Below are positions 3,736 to 26,883 of a DNA stretch of 43,234 nucleotides, piece after piece. The stretch lies in IMG/VR virus record IMGVR_UViG_3300046168_000053, positions 1 through 43,234 of that record; one strand, 5' to 3'. This DNA comes from a virus. Position numbers and translations under genes: made by a program. Each line of letters opens with the position of its first letter. The first letter of the stretch is position 1. The notes below the pieces were generated by a model that saw only the letters and a program-made list of their open reading frames with translations, ran no database searches and was not told where the DNA came from.

Positions 3736-6042
3736 TTATACTTTGTAATCGCTTGGTTGAAGCGTTCTGTTTAAAAGTTGTCTGTTTGGATATTTGTCTC
3801 CACCATCTATTTCAGTTCCGTCCCAATTATAGAATCCAGATTGATTGATTGTATAATTATTAACAACTGCACTAGGCAAAATATATGGCACAGGAGTGAC
3901 CTGCCCCGCAGAGTAATCACCATACAGATTAGAACTATTGTAATTCTCTAGTGCAGTGTTTCTAGTAACTAAACCAGTAGGTTCATAGGTACTATTGGTC
4001 TGATTGAAATTGTAGTTTTGTGTTTGATACTTAGTGGTATGCCCAGTTGAACTGGTTTCAAGTAGAAGTGCAGTATCGTAATAATTATCTTCTTTATCGC
4101 TTGAAGCATTTGTAAATTCTGATGAATTACCCAAATCGGTACTACCACCTATTGCTCCAATATTTAGATTAATGGTATTAATAACCATCATCGTGGATGC
4201 GTTACTTGCACTAGGGACTCCATGCCCAAAATGATCCGTGTAGTACGCGAAAGTTAAACCAAGTGGTACTAGACCATTTGGAAGATTAAATTCAAATTTG
4301 TCGTTTGTGTTAAAAGTAGTACTACCATTGCTACTCCTTGCCCAAACTAAAAGATAAACAGTATTATTTAAAACTTTTAAATATTCTGAATTAATTATTG
4401 TATTACCTTTTCCCTGTCCAAAATCCATTGCTAAGAATTCATCAAGAGTTTTGGTTATGATACCCATTCCATTCGGTGGTGAATTTGAAGCTAATGCTAC
4501 ATAACTACCACCCCAATTAGGTACAATTGACCTACCGTGATTTTGTCTCTCTCTAAACAGTTCAGTGTCTGTCAAAGAAGTCGTTGTTGAAGTAGAGAGA
4601 GAAAGAGAAGGTAGTGTACTCCCACTTCTGACACTGTCATACCAATTAAATTTACTAAAACTTTCTCCTCTTGGTTGTGCCCTCACAAAAGCCCCAATCC
4701 CACCCCTTAATACACTGTCAGTTTTAATAGTTAAACTTGAATTCACTAACCCCTCTTTACCAATTTCCTTCAAGGCACTGACATTATTACAGTTAATTTT
4801 AAAATTAATGTTTGGTGTGATAAGCCTAAGTCGATGCCCCACTGCTTGTGCAGAAAGTTTTAAACTCACACTTGGTGTGATTGAGTGACCAGTAAACGAA
4901 ATAGCAGAGACACTACTATTTATTATAAAATGTGCACTTGCATTTCTTGCTTTTTGTAAACCCTTTCGACCAAAAGCAACTATGAGAAAATTCATGGGCA
5001 TGGACACACTCCCACTCATCTTAAATGCATTTCGACCCTCAACTGAAGTGCCAATCTTAAAAGTCAAATCACTTTGACCCTCCCTTAAGGTATTAACTAA
5101 ATGTGGAGTCGATGCCGTTGTTTGACCTTGCCTTGAATTAATAATTCGATGAGAGGTATGCTCAATACTGTAAGGCTTGTTTTTGTTAGCTTGCAGATCG
5201 ATTTTATCAACTTCTCGAACTAATAAATCTAAGATTTTCAACTCTTGTAGTTGAGCTTTTTCATGTTGTCCCTCGCCAATTAAAAACGATTGATATGCGT
5301 GTGCTTTAATTGCTTGAGTCAAAAACCTTGGAATCTCTCCAGAGGTTTCAGTTGAAGTGAAAACTGGTGAAGCAATTTTATAAGTCATCCAAAACTCGTT
5401 TATTATTCCATCAATTGCTTCTATATAAATACCCTCTCTCCCCTCACGGAAATTTAAATGCTTTGCGTTGGTGTACCTTGGATCACTGGTGTAGACTCCA
5501 AGACAATTCTCAATGACATTTTTGCCAGTTTGTTCGTAGTCTATGAACCTTTCAAAAAAGGTGTCCACCTCAACAAAATATTCTGAATTAGTGACCTCAA
5601 TTCCATCTGTTGAAAAGTTTGCTTTTCCTAGTTGAGAAACTTTTTTACAAGCATAACTTTTTCCATTGTAACCTACCCTTGCACCAATTGAGTAAAGCCC
5701 ATCTTCCTGCCATTCTGTTTCTGCAATATTGTCACCAATCTCGTACCAATGAATTAGTTCACTTGGATTTGAGTTTCCCGCAGAATGATTCCTATAAAAA
5801 ACACCGTCATGGTAAACCTCATGCCCAATATCATAAGCCAAGGCACTTGTCCAAATGTCCTTGAAGTACCGTTTTTCAGTAATAGTACATTCACCCCAAG
5901 GGTGATAGTCCCAACAGAATTTTGTGGCATCAGTTATATAGTCTGCAAGAATTGTTTTTTCATGTGCCAGTATATTGTCTGGCTCAATCCCTGCAATTGA
6001 GGCTACCCCCCGCTCAATTGTTGCGTAGTCGGTGGATCGCAT
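3736..6042 (-). CDS. Tail adaptor (tubular-type) protein with carbohydrate-binding-like repeats, 768 aa
   Basis: The N-terminus (MRSTDYATIERGVASIAG..., then FCWDYHPWGECTITEKRYF) resembles podovirus head-to-tail adaptor proteins, which usually carry a helix ending in a Trp/Pro patch near residue 45. Two chitin-binding-like modules follow, at about residues 65-105 (YDIGHEVYHDGVFYRNH...P...W) and 110-160 (YSIGARVGYNGKSYACK). Helices resume to about residue 280. The C-terminal 450 residues are Ser/Thr/Asn-rich and beta-like, as in a spike or decoration domain. The protein is much longer than a simple adaptor (about 200 residues), so it is probably a fusion of adaptor and appendage. The start overlaps the previous stop (TAATG). 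Confidence 0.55.
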   Translation of the reverse strand: MRSTDYATIERGVASIAGIEPDNILAHEKTILADYITDATKFCWDYHPWGECTITEKRYFKDIWTSALAYDIGHEVYHDGVFYRNHSAGNSNPSELIHWYEIGDNIAETEWQEDGLYSIGARVGYNGKSYACKKVSQLGKANFSTDGIEVTNSEYFVEVDTFFERFIDYEQTGKNVIENCLGVYTSDPRYTNAKHLNFREGREGIYIEAIDGIINEFWMTYKIASPVFTSTETSGEIPRFLTQAIKAHAYQSFLIGEGQHEKAQLQELKILDLLVREVDKIDLQANKNKPYSIEHTSHRIINSRQGQTTASTPHLVNTLREGQSDLTFKIGTSVEGRNAFKMSGSVSMPMNFLIVAFGRKGLQKARNASAHFIINSSVSAISFTGHSITPSVSLKLSAQAVGHRLRLITPNINFKINCNNVSALKEIGKEGLVNSSLTIKTDSVLRGGIGAFVRAQPRGESFSKFNWYDSVRSGSTLPSLSLSTSTTTSLTDTELFRERQNHGRSIVPNWGGSYVALASNSPPNGMGIITKTLDEFLAMDFGQGKGNTIINSEYLKVLNNTVYLLVWARSSNGSTTFNTNDKFEFNLPNGLVPLGLTFAYYTDHFGHGVPSASNASTMMVINTINLNIGAIGGSTDLGNSSEFTNASSDKEDNYYDTALLLETSSTGHTTKYQTQNYNFNQTNSTYEPTGLVTRNTALENYNSSNLYGDYSAGQVTPVPYILPSAVVNNYTINQSGFYNWDGTEIDGGDKYPNRQLLNRTLQPSDYKV

Positions 6043-6400: not shown

Positions 6401-7472
6401 TTAGGAGAGTGTGTACTTACCGTGATCAAGACCACCAGAGTAAGATTTCAAACTGAAAACAGATTCAATGATTGAACGAGAACCTCCACCCAAGTCTGGC
6501 AATTCACGAACTGAAGTTTCTTCTGCAAAGCAAGCCTCAAGTTGTGGCATATTCAGAATGAATAATGTGTTTTGTCCAACACTGGCATCATAAGACACCA
6601 CTAGAGTCTCTGGCATCATTGCTCGAGGAAACTGAGAGGTTCAAGGTTATTGTCCCAAAATCACTGTCGATGATATCAACGCTAGCACTCAAGCGACCTT
6701 CATCAGTGTCACGATTTGACATGACAATATTGTTAGTGCGAGGAGTGAACAGAGTGAAGTTGCTAATTGTCTTCTTCATCGATGTTCCGCAAAGACCGTA
6801 AAAAGTCTTATCCGATTCACCAGTTTGCTCATAGATTGACTGGAGAACATCACGCAAATCCTCTTCCTTCGCAGTGGTAGTAGTGGAACTTTTGATTGAT
6901 CCAGTTGGTGTCAAGAAATCAGTCGGTACTGGCAAAGTGCCTTGTGCCGTGTCTGAAATCCATTTCCCTAAACCACGAGTTTGATAAGGACTTGCAGGAT
7001 TACCTCCGCTTGCTCCTGCCTCTTGTGCAGTCTCTTGAGAAGAGCACAGAGTACTTTCTATATCCCTTTTGTGTGCGACTAAAGCCAAGGCGATTGAAGA
7101 AGCTTTTTCCTTTTTGTAACCGACTCCCGCGACATCCGAAACCATGTTTGCCAAGCGAGAAACTTTTGGCACTCTGCGAGTGTACTGAAGATAAACAGAA
7201 CATTTCACACGATCATCATATCCTTCAAAATCACTTGAAGTGATGTCTTCACCATCTATGGGAAGTTTATCAGAAATTCCTGCCGTGTAAGTTGCTTGCT
7301 GAACAAGGTTTGCCTTGTGTTTATTTAAACCCCATTCAACGAAAGTGTTTTTGGGTGCTGATCCCTTTTTTACTTGGGACATAAAAGGTGTCGCCTTTTT
7401 GTCAACCAAAGTTAATAAATCGCTTAATGATTCCCTTTTAAGGGACTGATCTCGTTCTACTATTCCTGCCAT
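6401..7472 (-). CDS. Major capsid protein (SU10/DUF5309-like HK97 fold), one-base frame break
   Basis: The first frame (7472 to about 6645) gives MAGIVERDQSLKRESLSDLL and 280-odd residues of HK97-fold type, ending DSDFGTITLNL before drifting into a non-family tail. The next frame continues QFPRAMMPETLVV...LFILNMPQLEACF...ELPDLGGG...IESVFSLK. This matches the end of the family, where a DFGT strand is followed by an R.MP..T strand and C-terminal beta residues. Removing one base within about 6628-6645 gives 356 residues, the usual size. A strong AGGAGG ribosome site precedes the start. A translational product by programmed +1 shift is possible but not needed; sequence error is more likely. Confidence 0.8.
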
Positions 7473-12954: not shown

Positions 12955-13545
12955 TTAATTGATGGTTAGTTCTGTTGATCCGCATGACCAACATTGAAAA
13001 TGTTCGTGATCGATTTCCTCGATAACTTTACGAGAGGCACGAACCTTAAATCCGCACTCACATTCGATTTTAATTTGACGAGTGGTTTGCTTTTTATGAC
13101 CACTGGAAATGTCGATTTTCTTGTGAGGATAGTCACCGTATCGTTTTACATACTTTGCAAGTAAATCGTAGAGTGGAGTACCCTCTACTGCCGTACACTG
13201 TGTAGGTTTGCCCTCAAGTCCGACTGCACGAGCAATATCAGTAAAGGCTTTACCATGACCACTCTCACAATTGTCAATCGCATGACACAATTCGTGAACC
13301 AATATGCCAAGCACTTCGATTGAATTATCAACTGTTGGACTAACGAAAACCTCGTTTACTCCTGCGGTTGAGCATGAGCGAGAGTAGCACTCACCAAGTC
13401 TGCGTTTGCGTTGAGTAAATGCACCCTTACTTGGAAGCGAGGATGAAACTCTAACATCCGCAGGAACGGTTTGACCGTTTTTCGTGAATAATGATTTGGA
13501 CAACCTTTCTGTTGCCTTGCGTAAATATGTTTCTCTGTCGTTCAT
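12955..13545 (-). CDS. SprT-like zinc metalloprotein, 196 aa
   Basis: Contains HELCH (residues 84-88), the zinc/catalytic motif of zincins, with a further His in ESGHGKAF as third ligand. These are the SprT/Spartan core features. The C-terminus holds a zinc ribbon (ECECGF ... CWSCG). Cellular relatives cleave DNA-protein crosslinks; phage versions are common but their targets are unknown. I chose the ATG at 13543-13545 (MNDRETYLRK) because it follows the TTATTGTCTTAATTATG module shared with other gene starts. There is no Shine-Dalgarno sequence at this start. Confidence 0.8.
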   Translation of the reverse strand: MNDRETYLRKATERLSKSLFTKNGQTVPADVRVSSSLPSKGAFTQRKRRLGECYSRSCSTAGVNEVFVSPTVDNSIEVLGILVHELCHAIDNCESGHGKAFTDIARAVGLEGKPTQCTAVEGTPLYDLLAKYVKRYGDYPHKKIDISSGHKKQTTRQIKIECECGFKVRASRKVIEEIDHEHFQCWSCGSTELTIN

Positions 13546-13600
13546 AATTAAGACAATAATATTAATTATTATATAATGCAAGAAGTTCTTGTGTCATAAA
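13543..13600 (-). promoter_or_regulatory. Two-part upstream module, copy 1
   Basis: Read on the minus strand: TTTATGACAC at 13600-13591, CTTGCATTAT at 13582-13573, then TATTGTCTTAATTATG ending in the start codon of the SprT-like gene at 13543. The first box contains the stop codon of the gene before it. The same boxes recur in order at three other places (15002-15059, 15793-15962, 26815-26883). Probably a promoter or translation signal. Confidence 0.55.
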
Positions 13601-13836
13601 GTTGCAATGTCTTTCATGCCTCTAATTTTCGATAGGTATTTGATTTGTATCACCAAATCTCCGCTAAGAATATTAATTGCCTCCAATTGTTTTAGGGTAT
13701 CACCCTTTCCAGATTGGCATTTGTTTGCCAATTTCTGGATGGTCTTTTTGGCTTTAAATATTCGTTCTCTGGTCTCGGAAAATTCTTCATCACCTTTCCA
13801 TTCCCAGAGTGCCTTTGCGTTTTCTTTATTCATCAT
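13594..13836 (-). CDS. Small helical protein, 80 aa
   Basis: MMNKENAKALWEWKGDEEF..., strongly charged and helical (ETRERIFKAKKTIQKLANK). Two adjacent ATGs are possible starts. It ends inside the conserved TTTATGACAC box, so its stop is part of the regulatory module of the SprT-like gene. No family recognised. Confidence 0.55.
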   Translation of the reverse strand: MMNKENAKALWEWKGDEEFSETRERIFKAKKTIQKLANKCQSGKGDTLKQLEAINILSGDLVIQIKYLSKIRGMKDIATL

Positions 13837-14935: not shown

Positions 14936-15004
14936 TTAGTTGATGTAGTCTGCAATGCAATCTGCGAGAGTGTCGTGGTAAGATGATGTGCGGTTCTTGA
15001 TCAT
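14936..15004 (-). CDS. 22-residue peptide gene after a regulatory module
   Basis: ATG at 15002-15004 follows the conserved TTATTGTATTAAACATG version of the upstream module and opens a 22-residue frame (MIKNRTSSYHDTLADCIADY plus IN). It may be a leader peptide controlling the gene at 14930, or simply a small gene. Support is the module and the spacing. Confidence 0.4.
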   Translation of the reverse strand: MIKNRTSSYHDTLADCIADYIN

Positions 15005-15059
15005 GTTTAATACAATAAATTTATTTATTTGAAATAGCAAGTGGTAGTTGTGTCATAAA
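15002..15059 (-). promoter_or_regulatory. Two-part upstream module, copy 2
   Basis: Minus strand: TTTATGACAC at 15059-15050 (again containing the stop of the gene before), CTTGCTATTT at 15041-15032, then TTATTGTATTAAACATG ending at the start of the 22-residue frame. This is the most diverged of the four copies but keeps the order and distance seen in copy 1. Confidence 0.5.
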
Positions 15060-15364
15060 CTTATTTTCTCCATTATTTTCTCAAACGATAAACCATCGTT
15101 TTCATGCGGTTGGATTTTAGACTCCCACTTGGAAAGAAATTTTTCTAACTGTCTCTTGTCTTTAACAAAGTCTTTATAGTCTCCGTCACTTGGGTCAGTC
15201 ACTGACACTGAATCATTCGCCCAATAGAGGTGATACTTTGCCTCATCAATGAGGTATTTATCACCATAATGCTTGTCTGCATTTTCCTCCGATATGCGAT
15301 CCACATTATTAAACTGATGTTCCAGTTCTGAAACTTTGTAGGCATCTTTTATTATTTCTCTCAT
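15053..15364 (-). CDS. Small protein of unknown function, 103 aa
   Basis: MREIIKDAYKVSELEHQFNN..., charged and helical, with a KYHLYWANDSVSVTDPSDGDYKDF stretch cut here at key residues. It ends EKIMEKISL with the stop inside the TTTATGACAC box. No Shine-Dalgarno sequence is evident. No family recognised. Confidence 0.55.
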   Translation of the reverse strand: MREIIKDAYKVSELEHQFNNVDRISEENADKHYGDKYLIDEAKYHLYWANDSVSVTDPSDGDYKDFVKDKRQLEKFLSKWESKIQPHENDGLSFEKIMEKISL

Positions 15365-15576: not shown

Positions 15577-15795
15577 CTATCTGTTAAATGTTCCGACCCA
15601 TCTAGCTTTTGCTTGTTTGGCGATAATCATTGCCAGTGATGTACGAGATGGAAAACCTTCATCCATTAAGACATCTCGTGCAGTCCACATTACTTCATTA
15701 ATTGGAGATTTTGAGGTTAGGTTAAACTCAAAGTGCTTCAGCACAAGCTCAACGACATTATCGATTTCAGATTGATTTAAGAATTTGTTGCTCAT
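15577..15795 (-). CDS. First gene of the terminase-portal small-gene cassette, 72 aa
   Basis: MSNKFLNQSEIDNVVELVLK..., helical, ending ARWVGTFNR. It starts at the ATG of upstream module copy 3 and follows the 260-base hairpin-rich intergenic region after the large terminase gene, so it is likely the first gene of a transcript. No family recognised. Confidence 0.55.
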   Translation of the reverse strand: MSNKFLNQSEIDNVVELVLKHFEFNLTSKSPINEVMWTARDVLMDEGFPSRTSLAMIIAKQAKARWVGTFNR

Positions 15796-15962
15796 AATTA
15801 AGACAATAATATTTATTAGTATTTAATGCAAGTCCTAAATGAAAATTCTGTATTTGAGTCAAGGAATCGCTAAGGGGATACCCCTTAACCGTACCTTAAA
15901 AACCTAGTGTTTATGCGGTTCTTAGCCGAATATTATCGGATAATATTTTCTTGTGTCATAAA
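15793..15962 (-). promoter_or_regulatory. Two-part upstream module, copy 3 (expanded)
   Basis: Minus strand: TTTATGACAC at 15962-15953, then about 120 bases with two inverted repeats, CTTGCATTAA at 15832-15823, and TATTGTCTTAATTATG at 15808-15793 ending in the start codon of the 72-residue gene. It shares CTAAATGAA (plus strand, just outside the second box) with copy 4. The insertion of extra sequence between the boxes argues against the pair being simple -35/-10 elements. Confidence 0.5.
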
Positions 15963-20787: not shown

Positions 20788-20930
20788 CCTAACCTCCAGT
20801 TATGTCCTAAATTGACTCTTTTCATCTTTACTAGTGGGTGGGCTTTCCCAAATGCACCCTTAGTTGGTTTTACCTTTTGGGTAGCTAGATTCCCTTGATA
20901 TCTCCTCCGTTGATAATTAAATAAACTCAT
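20784..20930 (-). CDS. Small basic protein, 48 aa
   Basis: ATG at 20928-20930 overlaps the stop of the helicase-loader gene (ATGA). The product (MSLFNYQRRRYQGNLATQKV...) is very basic, with aromatic residues. Probably translated by coupling to the loader gene. Could bind nucleic acid. Function unknown. Confidence 0.5.
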   Translation of the reverse strand: MSLFNYQRRRYQGNLATQKVKPTKGAFGKAHPLVKMKRVNLGHNWRLG

Positions 20931-21655
20931 ACTTTGAATACCTCCTGCTTTTCAGTGTTATTAAAAATGAAAACTTCACTAGTTTCCCTTAGCCTCTCCA
21001 AGAGTGCGTGACCTCTTCTCTTGTCCAGAAATAGACTAATTGCTTCCTTCGATTTCACTTGAGTAGTGATGAGATTTGGAAGCTTCCTTGCCATCCTTTG
21101 TTCAATGACCTCAAATAAGCCCTTCTGCGTTGTTTCTGTTAGCTTTTCAGCAAAGAGGTCATCTATCGCGAGAACTGGCACTGTAGTGACCTCCTTAAAC
21201 CATTGGCGGTATTGTGTGCCTCTCTTCGCATCCACCAGTTCCGTGTGAAAGTCTCCTGCAAAGAATGCCTTGAATAAAATGCGTTGCTTGTGGAGTTGTT
21301 GAAGTAGCAAGCAAAGTGATCTTGTCTTGCCCTGCCGTGAATCCCCAAGCAAATACAACCCTTTCTTGCGGTTTAAATCCCATGTGAGGATATTTGCTAA
21401 GTTATCCTTCCCTGCCTTGGGTAAACGGTTTAATTCAGTCTCGCGGTAAAACACTGGGATTAATTCATCAATAGGAGGCTGATACCCAACGGTAGTTAAC
21501 TCGGTAGATTCACGCTCGTGGTATTCATTGCAACAAGTGTCGCACACTGCTACCTCATGGTTGCCCCCAAAGAGTGGTTGATTAATAAGTTCCTCTGACC
21601 ATCCAGAGTCTTCACCGCATTCACGGCATGGAATAATTGTTGTTGTTGTCATCAT
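20927..21655 (-). CDS. DnaC-like helicase loader (AAA+ ATPase) with zinc finger, 242 aa
   Basis: Residues 10-41 carry four Cys (CREC...CDTC), a zinc finger typical of DnaC/DnaI relatives. The AAA+ core follows with Walker A GDSRQGKT (104-111), Walker B VLAIDDL (161-167), a sensor-1 LITTQ (195-199) and a late Arg (RLRE at 221). These proteins hold the replicative helicase and load it at an origin. It follows the initiator gene by three bases, so the pair is organised like lambda O and P. No phage helicase is present, so the host DnaB is the likely partner. Confidence 0.85.
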   Translation of the reverse strand: MMTTTTIIPCRECGEDSGWSEELINQPLFGGNHEVAVCDTCCNEYHERESTELTTVGYQPPIDELIPVFYRETELNRLPKAGKDNLANILTWDLNRKKGLYLLGDSRQGKTRSLCLLLQQLHKQRILFKAFFAGDFHTELVDAKRGTQYRQWFKEVTTVPVLAIDDLFAEKLTETTQKGLFEVIEQRMARKLPNLITTQVKSKEAISLFLDKRRGHALLERLRETSEVFIFNNTEKQEVFKV

Positions 21656-21658
21656 AGT

Positions 21659-22339
21659 TTAAAAATCGTCTTCAGTGAAATTACCGTTGGTTACGGTCAC
21701 TGGTTTCGCTTCAAGTGTTTTTTTTCCGAAATACCACCCAACATACCCAGATGATATCGCCCTGTTTAAACGGTCAATGATTCCATCTAATCCCTCGACT
21801 GCATAAATTGTCTCGAAATCGCGGAACGCTTGTTTTAGCTGAGAATCCTTAATTGTCTTTCTCTTGGATTTGCAATAATTGCACCAGTCATCCCATGCCT
21901 CGCTCAAGGTTGGGTCACTTATTATTAATTTATATTTATTATTATTTAATATATATAATATATAAGGTGCACCTAGAGGACTCTCTATAGTACTACTGGT
22001 AGTACTACTGTTAGTACTATGGGTAGTACTACTCTCATTTTTCAGAACCTCTGCTTTGACCTCAATCTTGGGGATCATAGTACTATGGGTAGTACTACTT
22101 TTTTCAGCTATAGTACTACTGGTAGTACTACTTTCTTGAGGCACTATTGTTGGAGTAGTACTACCAGTAGTACTATGGGTAGTACTACCCAACAATAAGT
22201 CAGTCCTCCTTTTGTGCTCAATAATGCAGTGTTTTACTGCTTCATTAATGCTCAAACCGTAGTTCTTGCAGAGACTTTTTAAGTACTCTTCGAGGGTACT
22301 GGGAAGCCTCAAGACAGTCTTGTAGTCAGAATGGGACAT
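21659..22339 (-). CDS. Replication initiator with RHH domain and internal origin, 226 aa
   Basis: I start at ATG 22337-22339 (MSHSDYKTVLRLP), 14 bases inside the end of the SSB-like gene. Residues 5-46 fit a ribbon-helix-helix domain (KTVLRLP strand, then two helices with a GLSINEAV turn). Residues 51-120 are a Ser/Thr-rich linker made by the DNA repeats. Residues 144-206 contain LSEAWDDWCNYC and GIIDRLNRAISSGYVGW, the plan of the C-terminal domain of phage replisome organisers. Ser codons in the repeats are all AGT, and Thr codons only ACT or ACC, so selection acts on DNA. I infer that the protein binds its own gene as origin. Confidence 0.7.
   Translation of the reverse strand: MSHSDYKTVLRLPSTLEEYLKSLCKNYGLSINEAVKHCIIEHKRRTDLLLGSTTHSTTGSTTPTIVPQESSTTSSTIAEKSSTTHSTMIPKIEVKAEVLKNESSTTHSTNSSTTSSTIESPLGAPYILYILNNNKYKLIISDPTLSEAWDDWCNYCKSKRKTIKDSQLKQAFRDFETIYAVEGLDGIIDRLNRAISSGYVGWYFGKKTLEAKPVTVTNGNFTEDDF
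21919..21965. other. 47-bp pure A/T run, candidate DNA-unwinding element
   Basis: Bases 21919-21965 contain no G or C although they lie inside a coding sequence (encoding YILYILNNNKYKLII). It starts 22 bases to the left of the repeat array in plus-strand coordinates. In lambda ori, an A/T-rich region of similar length follows the iterons inside gene O. Likely DNA-melting region of the phage origin. Confidence 0.6.
21988..22188. repeat. Origin iterons: 11 copies of TAGTACTAY
   Basis: Copies begin at 21988, 22000, 22012, 22024; 22078, 22090; 22111, 22123; 22156, 22168, 22180. Within each cluster the spacing is exactly 12 bp. Each copy is centred on the palindrome AGTACT, many extended to GTAGTACTAC. 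All distances are multiples of three, preserving the reading frame of the initiator gene. Tandem palindromic half-sites fit binding by a dimeric ribbon-helix-helix protein, as MetJ and Arc do on tandem operators. Candidate origin. Confidence 0.7.
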
Positions 22340-22790
22340 CGTCCTCCTCTTCCTCACCGTACACCTCATTATCAATTGCATCTTGTACGGTTTCAGATGC
22401 ATCAGTGCCATTATCTCTTACCTCAATGTTTTCTGCGGTTACTGGTTCACACCACTTAATAATTTTCTTGTACCCTCCTTTATCAGTACCCTCGACTGCC
22501 TTAAATGACTTCCCAACTAAAGCTTGGAATGACTCAAGATTGAGAGTCCAATCTGCCTCATCCATTTTCTTAAAAGCGATTTCCTCAAAGTCTGGTGCAG
22601 TTGCACCAAAAGCATTAAATATCACCTCGGTTTTCCAGTGTGCCTTCTTAGTAAAAAACACGCTTTCATATATGACATCATCACCATCTCCAACTAATAA
22701 TGAAATCCAACGGTTGCCATTTTTAGTAACCTTTAAATTACCATCTTTATCTTCGAGGTAGATATCGATTAAGTTATATTCCTTTTCCAT
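22326..22790 (-). CDS. Single-stranded-DNA-binding-like protein, 154 aa
   Basis: A beta-rich body (KVTKNGNRWISLLVGDGDD...) is followed by an acidic tail ending EEEEDDVPF, the tip that in SSB proteins binds partner proteins. The middle (LVGKSFKAVEGTDKGGYKKIIKW) fits the small phage SSB-like families. It is encoded with ERF, exonuclease and resolvase and overlaps the initiator gene, all consistent with protecting ssDNA during replication and recombination. Confidence 0.7.
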   Translation of the reverse strand: MEKEYNLIDIYLEDKDGNLKVTKNGNRWISLLVGDGDDVIYESVFFTKKAHWKTEVIFNAFGATAPDFEEIAFKKMDEADWTLNLESFQALVGKSFKAVEGTDKGGYKKIIKWCEPVTAENIEVRDNGTDASETVQDAIDNEVYGEEEEDDVPF

Positions 22791-22996: not shown

Positions 22997-23697
22997 TACA
23001 AATTCCTTTCTTGCATATCGCCAAAGACCGCACCCGCGATTTTCCAGAACTTTTCAACCATTCCCTTTGGATCACCATCGGCAAAGTCTAATGTAACTTC
23101 AAAGTCACCCGCATGATGGTAACCAATAGCACTAGGGTTGGAGTAGAGGGGACTAAGTCCCGCCTTATCTACGATTGCGGAAATGTGGTTCTGCCTAGCA
23201 TCCTCAATCTTAGCATCGATTTTATCTTGATCCTTAAGGTTTCCTACCTTCACATTTTCTGGCTTGAAAGCGGGTGCTTGTGCCTCAATCAATTCAATTG
23301 ATTTTGGCTCAGTCTCAATGTCAAATCGAGTACACCTTTCGGATTTCACGAGTCCATAAGTTTTCGCTTGAAAATGATAAATATCTGAGACCAATTGAAC
23401 ATCGTGCGTAAGGTACTCAATTTGATCCTGTCGGTTCATCTGGTAAAAGAATTTACCGTTTCCAGATTTACCCTCTAGTCCATATGCCTTCGCTAAGTTG
23501 TCTAGAGAAATCATTTCGCCAAATTTACCCATCCCATCAATTATCATGGTGTCACTGTAAACATCTGGGTAAAACTTGCCTTTACCTCTACCCAAGGGTG
23601 TAAGGTAATTAGGCACTTCAATGCCATTGTATGAACTCCATTTTATTAAATAGGGAATGTCAAAACCGATGATGTTATGTCCGACTAATCTACCCAT
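22996..23697 (-). CDS. 3'-5' exonuclease (DEDD family) with circularly permuted motif order, 233 aa
   Basis: The family has Exo I (FDIET) near the N-terminus, then a KxGNLKD segment and ...IGY, then Exo II (GHNIxGFD) and Exo III (YLxxDV). Here the order is Exo II GHNIIGFDIPYL (6-17), Exo III YLTHDV (95-100), then Exo I RFDIETE (124-130), NVKVGNLKD (148-156), AIGY (190-193) and KFWKI (216-220). All four acidic residues are present (D126, E128, D13, D99). The new termini lie between the segments KFWK and GHN that adjoin in relatives. The frame is uninterrupted and overlaps both neighbours. Likely proofreading or recombination exonuclease. Confidence 0.75.
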   Translation of the reverse strand: MGRLVGHNIIGFDIPYLIKWSSYNGIEVPNYLTPLGRGKGKFYPDVYSDTMIIDGMGKFGEMISLDNLAKAYGLEGKSGNGKFFYQMNRQDQIEYLTHDVQLVSDIYHFQAKTYGLVKSERCTRFDIETEPKSIELIEAQAPAFKPENVKVGNLKDQDKIDAKIEDARQNHISAIVDKAGLSPLYSNPSAIGYHHAGDFEVTLDFADGDPKGMVEKFWKIAGAVFGDMQERNL

Positions 23698-24325
23698 TTT
23701 CTGCCCTCCATTGTTCAGCTTGGTTCGTAAGGGTGGATGATTTTGTTTTCAAAAACTTTTCGTTCCTATCATTTTTGGCATCTTGTGGTATGTAGGAAAT
23801 ACCATTTGCCCAATCCTCAATCTTTAGCTCAACCAATTTATCTTGGCATCTTTCTACTAACGATTTTGTTGGTATAGGTTTAGCCTTTGGTTTTGGTGTA
23901 GGTTTACTTAAAACACCATCTGTATCCTCCTCACTGACGAGGGCAAACACTGTAGCTAAAGCATATCTTTTTGCGTAAGTAATAGAGCAACCGTGTGCTT
24001 GGTTTGAGTTCATGCCTCGTGCCTCTTCGACAGGCATCGTGAAGTAACTCGGTTGTGTCCTTTGCCCACTCTTGTGGATAATAAAAGTCTCCACTGAAAT
24101 GTGATTGTCAATATCGACATAACTTAGATTTTGCTCAAACCAGAGACCGTGCTTTGGTAGGACATTTCTCAAGATCGTAACGATCTGATCCAATCCTGCG
24201 TATCGGTAATTATGTCCCTTCGTGTCTTTGACTGGGTTCGTGAGTTCCGCTTGTGCCAAAATAATAGCAGGATAGATTTCCGAATAAGAAATCGTGTGAT
24301 CGTGAATAATAGTTTTTTCATCCAT
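23690..24325 (-). CDS. ERF-family single-strand annealing protein, 211 aa
   Basis: N-terminal two thirds match the ERF plan: YPAIILAQAELTNPVKDTKG, then YRYAGLDQIVTILRNVLPKHGL, a central THEAKRYALATVF-type segment (here SITYAKRYALATVFALV), and the acidic EEDTDG. The C-terminal part is a Pro/Lys-rich linker and a small tail. ERF proteins pair complementary ssDNA and circularise or recombine phage DNA. It fits with the exonuclease, SSB-like and resolvase genes beside it. Confidence 0.8.
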   Translation of the reverse strand: MDEKTIIHDHTISYSEIYPAIILAQAELTNPVKDTKGHNYRYAGLDQIVTILRNVLPKHGLWFEQNLSYVDIDNHISVETFIIHKSGQRTQPSYFTMPVEEARGMNSNQAHGCSITYAKRYALATVFALVSEEDTDGVLSKPTPKPKAKPIPTKSLVERCQDKLVELKIEDWANGISYIPQDAKNDRNEKFLKTKSSTLTNQAEQWRAENG

Positions 24326-26619: not shown

Positions 26620-26817
26620 TTAGTTGGTTAAATTTTTGTAGAATATTTCTCGCACAATGCTTTTCGCCCTTGCAATTACATTTTCATTAAAAGTAACACT
26701 AGCATCTAAAGTGTCACCATTGTGATTTAAGACTTGGTAGAATGTACCATTAATACGATCACTAATAGTGATAGTTTTGCGTTTGCGATTAATTTTAAAA
26801 GTCAATGCGTTGTTCAT
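26620..26817 (-). CDS. First gene of the early block, 65 aa
   Basis: MNNALTFKINRKRKTITISDR..., strand-rich, ending VREIFYKNLTN. It begins at the ATG of upstream module copy 4, so it is probably the first gene of the early transcript. Not recognised by family. Confidence 0.55.
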   Translation of the reverse strand: MNNALTFKINRKRKTITISDRINGTFYQVLNHNGDTLDASVTFNENVIARAKSIVREIFYKNLTN

Positions 26818-26883
26818 GATTAAGACACTAATTTAATTTATTGCTTAATACAAGAACTAAATGAAGAAATCTCGTGTCATAAA
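26815..26883 (-). promoter_or_regulatory. Two-part upstream module, copy 4
   Basis: Minus strand: TTTATGACAC at 26883-26874, CTTGTATTAA at 26854-26845, and TAGTGTCTTAATCATG at 26830-26815 ending in the start of the 65-residue gene. It keeps box order and shares CTAAATGAA next to the second box with copy 3. Intergenic, directly upstream of the integration/replication block. Confidence 0.55.

Follow-up and report, generated by a model that had tools for sequence, protein, structure and literature searches.

An RHH-type phage initiator gene that probably contains its own lambda-type replication origin and co-evolves with its iterons

The window analysed here, the whole 43,234-nucleotide stretch of the virus record IMGVR_UViG_3300046168_000053, comes from an uncultured phage and carries a gene for a putative replication initiator of 226 aa. 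The predicted protein combines an N-terminal RHH domain with an O-like C-terminal domain, joined by a linker encoded by DNA repeats (Table 1). The first start codon of the open reading frame, at 22411, falls within the previous gene, and the initiator gene likely starts at 22339. The following gene specifies a DnaC-like helicase loader, in keeping with the initial annotation of this DNA, which had placed such a loader in the position of lambda P. A gene for an ERF single-strand annealing protein lies nearby and supplies a DNA-metabolism context.

Table 1. Features of the initiator locus and neighbouring genes
Feature	Position	Strand	Basis
Initiator gene (226 aa) with RHH N-terminus, linker encoded by the repeats and O-like C-terminus	21659..22339	-	translation, PHROG 582, PHROG 678, AlphaFold layout
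RHH (Arc-like) DNA-binding domain, codons 1-50 (weak matches)	22190..22339	-	PHROG 582, AlphaFold helices, Arc fold and profile matches
Predicted DNA-reading beta strand KTVLRLP	22301..22321	-	alignment
Iteron array, 11 RTAGTACTAY sites in clusters of 4, 2, 2 and 3, 12-bp steps	21987..22188	.	
3-site iteron cluster	22155..22188	.	
2-site iteron cluster	22110..22131	.	
2-site iteron cluster	22077..22098	.	
4-site iteron cluster adjoining the A/T tract	21987..22032	.	
G/C-rich box GGTGCACC between iterons and A/T tract	21966..21973	.	by eye
47-bp A/T-only tract, candidate DNA-unwinding element, encoding the start of the C-terminal domain	21919..21965	.	
O-like C-terminal domain (hairpin and helices), codons 126-226	21662..21964	-	
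DnaC-like helicase loader, in place of lambda P, next gene after the initiator	20927..21655	-	PHROG 50 8.6e-17, Pfam IstB_IS21 5.3e-9
ERF single-strand annealing protein (context)	23690..24325	-	Pfam ERF 1.8e-26

The C-terminal domain is related to phage O proteins. Thirteen of the 18 family members match PHROG 678 ("replication initiation O-like"), the best at 1.4e-9 and the window protein at 1.7e-4, and this part of the initiator aligns directly with the O proteins of Klebsiella and Cronobacter phages. Those two proteins match the Pfam profile Phage_rep_O (PF04492), a winged-helix N-terminal domain, at 2.8e-35 and 5.6e-36; none of the 18 members (0/18) matches it at an E-value of 0.01. As a whole, the initiator protein is unrecognised by Pfam and finds no match among annotated phage records.

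The N-terminal domain is of a different kind. With the first 50 residues scanned, PHROG 582 (Arc-like) is matched at 6.4e-5, and 13 of the 18 family members match it. In the AlphaFold monomer model, residues 14-27 and 31-49 form helices, the RHH beta strand itself is not formed, and the linker encoded by the iterons is predicted to be disordered. Among PDB fold matches of the domain Arc ranks first, with a probability of 0.75-0.77 but an E-value above 1, and it is a full-domain match in a profile search (E=0.026). The profile search was more useful than a single-sequence search of the domain against the PDB, which gave chance matches only; the fold searches returned nothing at E<=0.001. Single matches are weak, yet several lines agree, and together they suggest that the N-terminus is an Arc-like RHH domain. 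The prediction of a DNA-binding N-terminus and a replisome-organiser C-terminus thus holds in outline, the amendment being that the DNA-binding fold appears to be RHH and not winged helix. When the alignment is anchored on the LP / WP motif, K7, V9 and R11 of the predicted strand presumably correspond to Arc Gln9, Asn11 and Arg13. In Arc these strand residues make base contacts, reading a TAGA box (PMC12645479). The half-site of the window iteron is TAGT. The resemblance to P22 Arc, a similarity of fold judged from weak matches in sequence and structure, ends there: Arc, a small repressor, has neither an O-like domain nor an intragenic array.

Eleven copies of the 8-bp palindrome TAGTACTA are found at 21988-22187, and they account for every TAGTACTAY copy initially reported, with the reported 12-bp steps inside clusters; the gaps between clusters measure 54, 21 and 33 bp. 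The sites had been assigned to the middle of the gene. They are indeed inside it, and can now be placed more precisely in the linker between its two domains. In its 10-bp form the iteron is RTAGTACTAY, the site at 22012 reading TTAGTACTAT. Beyond the array, an exact TAGTACTA occurs only once more in the window, at 4317, the expectation for the whole window under a first-order Markov model being 0.33 copies. When codons were shuffled synonymously within the gene, the best 8-mer count averaged 4.5 and reached at most 8 in 300 shuffles, against the 11 observed. All 18 serines of the repeat region use AGT, exactly as first described, against an AGT share of 30% across seven of the window's large ORFs. 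The parallel statement that all repeat threonines use ACT or ACC is accurate for 18 of the 19; the remaining one is an ACA situated between sites.

The initial annotation had also put the array 22 bp from a 47-bp stretch devoid of G and C, and this is the distance between the tract and the first 8-mer. The A/T-richest 60 bp of the 43.2-kb contig lie at this tract (1 of 43,175 positions), and its run of 15 A/T-only codons has a probability of 8e-4 given codon usage. The G/C-rich box at its border has counterparts at the matching place in relatives, where a by-eye comparison of loci found GTGCGCAC, GCGTGCG, GCGCGCAC or CGCGCGCG. By eye across the loci, GGTGCACC, GTGCGCAC, GCGTGCG and CGCGCGCG are alternating purine-pyrimidine sequences. 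With nearly all genes of the window on the same strand, its G+C skew gives no independent sign of an origin.

An intragenic array next to an RHH domain invites other explanations. RHH proteins are often autorepressors, and since this domain matches Arc-like repressor families, the array could be an intragenic operator through which the protein represses transcription or blocks replication, its O-like domain being secondary. However, the sites lie about 150-350 nt into the gene, the 43.2 kb hold a single exact copy outside the array, and the A/T tract, the O-like C-terminus and the loader would be left unexplained. We regard this reading as highly unlikely, although autorepression may accompany origin function. 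Alternatively, the array might serve as a partition centromere for an RHH protein resembling ParR, ParG or omega, given that RHH proteins bind the tandem repeats of plasmid centromeres. But no match to a ParA, ParM or TubZ motor was found among the neighbouring genes scanned, which are part of those in the window, and both the O-like C-terminus and the helicase-loader gene that follows speak against it; the chance that the array is a centromere seems to us very slight indeed.

Relatives were found by searching viral contigs with the loader. There are 21, of which 19 have a readable whole initiator gene; L015 is cut off within the linker and still shows TGACAGCA sites, and L022 stops short of the initiator gene. 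Further viral scans returned the same contigs and added none. Bacterial and archaeal genomes scanned with the loader alignment contained no relative, and annotated phage records gave the loader one weak match. The common plan recurs in all 19 readable relatives, with about eight other iteron words: GGTATCAC in L010-L012, TGAGGTCA in L013, L019 and L024, TGGGGCCA in L020 and L028, GCGAAATG in L021 and L029, TGACAGCA in L014-L016, L023 and L025-L027, CACCAAATC in L018, GAGATATC in L030 and, weakly, GGTATCA in L017. Wherever a complete or long record was scanned, its iterons were concentrated at this single locus.

Of the intact genes tested at word length 8, only that of L017 has repeats that do not significantly exceed its synonymous-codon shuffles; the repeat count of L019 was equalled by 1 of 300 shuffles. 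L010, its gene being split, was left out of this test. At that locus (L010:4316-4997), a one-base insertion in the linker yields an RHH ORF ending at a TGA and a C-terminal ORF beginning at an ATG a few bases on, which reflects either an assembly error or a real split. The words, moreover, are translated variously. GTGACAGC is read as SDS or VTA, in another frame or from the other strand, and GGTATCACC is read as GIT while its reverse complement is read as GDT. This recurrence across frames and strands argues that the DNA, and not the peptide, is selected. Together with an array beyond the reach of all synonymous shuffles, it bears out the initial proposal of selection independent of the protein, and in the window itself codon choice and repeat counts make DNA-level selection on the repeats apparent.

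The closest relative of the window is L010. Each of its 11 sites is displaced by no more than 2 bp from the corresponding site of the window and has another word, GGTATCAC. Relative to GTAGTACTAC, positions 3 and 8 are changed at all 11 sites and position 4 or 7 at each, and positions 2, 5, 6 and 9 are unchanged throughout. In a comparison that skipped the extra base of L010, the amino acids also differ at every site, STT becoming GIT or SDT; such alteration of the protein at each site argues that the linker peptide follows the DNA. The initial annotation had held that its origin proposal would be refuted by close relatives that keep the protein and lack the repeats. Taken literally, the word TAGTACTA is indeed absent, but the array has been replaced in place by a different word, and this outcome speaks for an origin instead of against it. 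What is conserved among the relatives is the plan of the array and not the repeat word.

These data also bear on the notion that the repeats merely reflect a low-complexity Ser/Thr linker. The linker is predicted to be disordered and its amino-acid sequence differs among relatives, as might be expected on that account. Synonymous shuffles nevertheless fail to match the array, its words recur across frames and strands, and 11 of 11 sites have been replaced in place by another word; this reading is already contradicted by the comparisons, and we give it almost no credence.

The change of word is accompanied by changes in the RHH domain. The strand KTVLRLP of the window is KVTLRLP in L010, where further RHH residues also differ. 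In the pairs L020/L021 and L028/L029, identity is 38-60% over the RHH domain and the iterons and 89-100% from the G/C box on, a pattern that we read as a cassette swap. The RHH domains of the L013 and L020 types are close. Among their few differences is the residue that aligns with Arc Asn11, T in the L013 type and N in the L020 type, and the iteron word is TGAGGTCA in the former and TGGGGCCA in the latter. L011 and L013 have the beta-strand triplet K-T-R in common, yet carry different iterons, so that the three residues do not fix specificity. Over 14 lineages, iteron distance correlates with RHH distance (Mantel r=0.67, p=0.0001), and still does so given the C-terminus (partial Mantel r=0.64, p=0.0001), p-values to be taken as guides in view of the treatment of lineages as exchangeable and the analyst's choice of iteron consensus words. 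Given the RHH domain, iterons and C-terminus are not significantly correlated (partial Mantel r=-0.14, same 14 lineages). The alignments of these genes thus indicate that RHH domain and iterons change in a correlated manner.

We infer that the gene encodes a replication initiator and holds its lambda-type origin, that an RHH domain replaces the winged helix of lambda O, and that DNA reader and sites co-evolve, a reading to which we assign a probability of about 90%. The features of a lambda-type origin are present, namely iterons within the initiator gene, an adjacent A/T-rich tract and a loader gene directly downstream. The lambda ori plan put forward initially is thereby recovered in full, from binding domain through linker iterons, A/T tract and O-like C-terminus to the adjacent loader, and recurs in 19 contigs; layout, C-terminal likeness and recurrence can be read off the sequences themselves. 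By analogy with lambda (PMC7466680, PMC5043065), RHH dimers would occupy the eleven 10-bp palindromes within the linker-coding stretch of the initiator gene, and adjacent dimers 12 bp apart would form an O-some-like complex. Such a complex could strain the neighbouring A/T tract at 21919-21965 until it melts, after which the O-like C-terminus and the DnaC-like loader would recruit the replicative helicase of the host to the melted region. Initiator and sites would be inherited as one unit, and evolve together.

The origin-in-initiator plan itself is known from lambdoid phages, and covariation of initiator and iterons from the PLE satellites; what appears to be new here is the use of an RHH fold and the exchange of every site, in place, for another word. 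No description of an RHH fold in a phage replication initiator was found in the open-access papers searched. Lambda O and ori-lambda, like those of other lambdoid phages, share with the present locus mid-gene iterons with an A/T-rich tract, a loader gene next to them and a related C-terminus (PMC7466680, PMC5043065). Lambda O, however, has a Phage_rep_O N-terminus in place of the RHH domain, its iterons are four of 19 bp as opposed to 11 palindromes of 10 bp in 12-bp steps, and it is the window that has a DnaC-like AAA+ loader. In the Vibrio phage satellite PLE, the binding domain of RepA likewise covaries with the iterons of the origin, the C-terminal domain is conserved and modules are swapped (PMC8263062); in contrast to the RHH protein and intragenic sites of the window, that system is a satellite element with a RepA_N domain and iterons of about 30 bp.

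In each gene of this family, about 0.6-0.7 kb in length, a protein is matched with DNA sites of its own, and the set includes one in-place replacement of 11 sites and a cassette swap. It therefore resembles a natural experiment in the co-evolution of a protein and its DNA target, and allows one to test directly how the specificity of a regulator shifts in step with that of many binding sites. One could envision a natural series of specificity switches, in which the binding words that RHH-type initiators carry in their own genes are rewritten site by site, or exchanged as a cassette, along with the DNA-reading strand. Competing phages, decoy origins or satellites might supply the pressure; we consider the odds of such a series to be about even. 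If true, comparison of sequences could yield a recognition code for RHH domains, an example being the T-to-N change at the residue aligned with Arc Asn11, together with that of TGAGGTCA to TGGGGCCA. Iteron-bearing plasmids block lambda and not a hybrid with P22 replication (PMC3349717), and lambda is arrested by ectopic origins (PMC4488673). It is plausible that such interference between origins or iterons drives diversification in the family of the window too.

Elsewhere in the window, the palindrome GTTTAAAC occurs in 11 scattered copies (1572, 2692, 9912, 12696, 16243, 21764, 26895, 28070, 30244, 34186 and 36501), where 1.2 are expected, a count reached by 0 of 100 shuffles; there are 12 copies in the L010 record, 29 in that of L018 and 0-2 in six other related records. 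Most other large ORFs of the window that were scanned have no PHROG match. The major head protein (6588-7472) is 25-31% identical to those of Vibrio, Pseudomonas and other phages. A 62-nt sequence ending in ATGA on the minus strand is present four times (13542-13603, 15001-15062, 15792-15853 and 26814-26875) and is possibly a shared gene leader or promoter.
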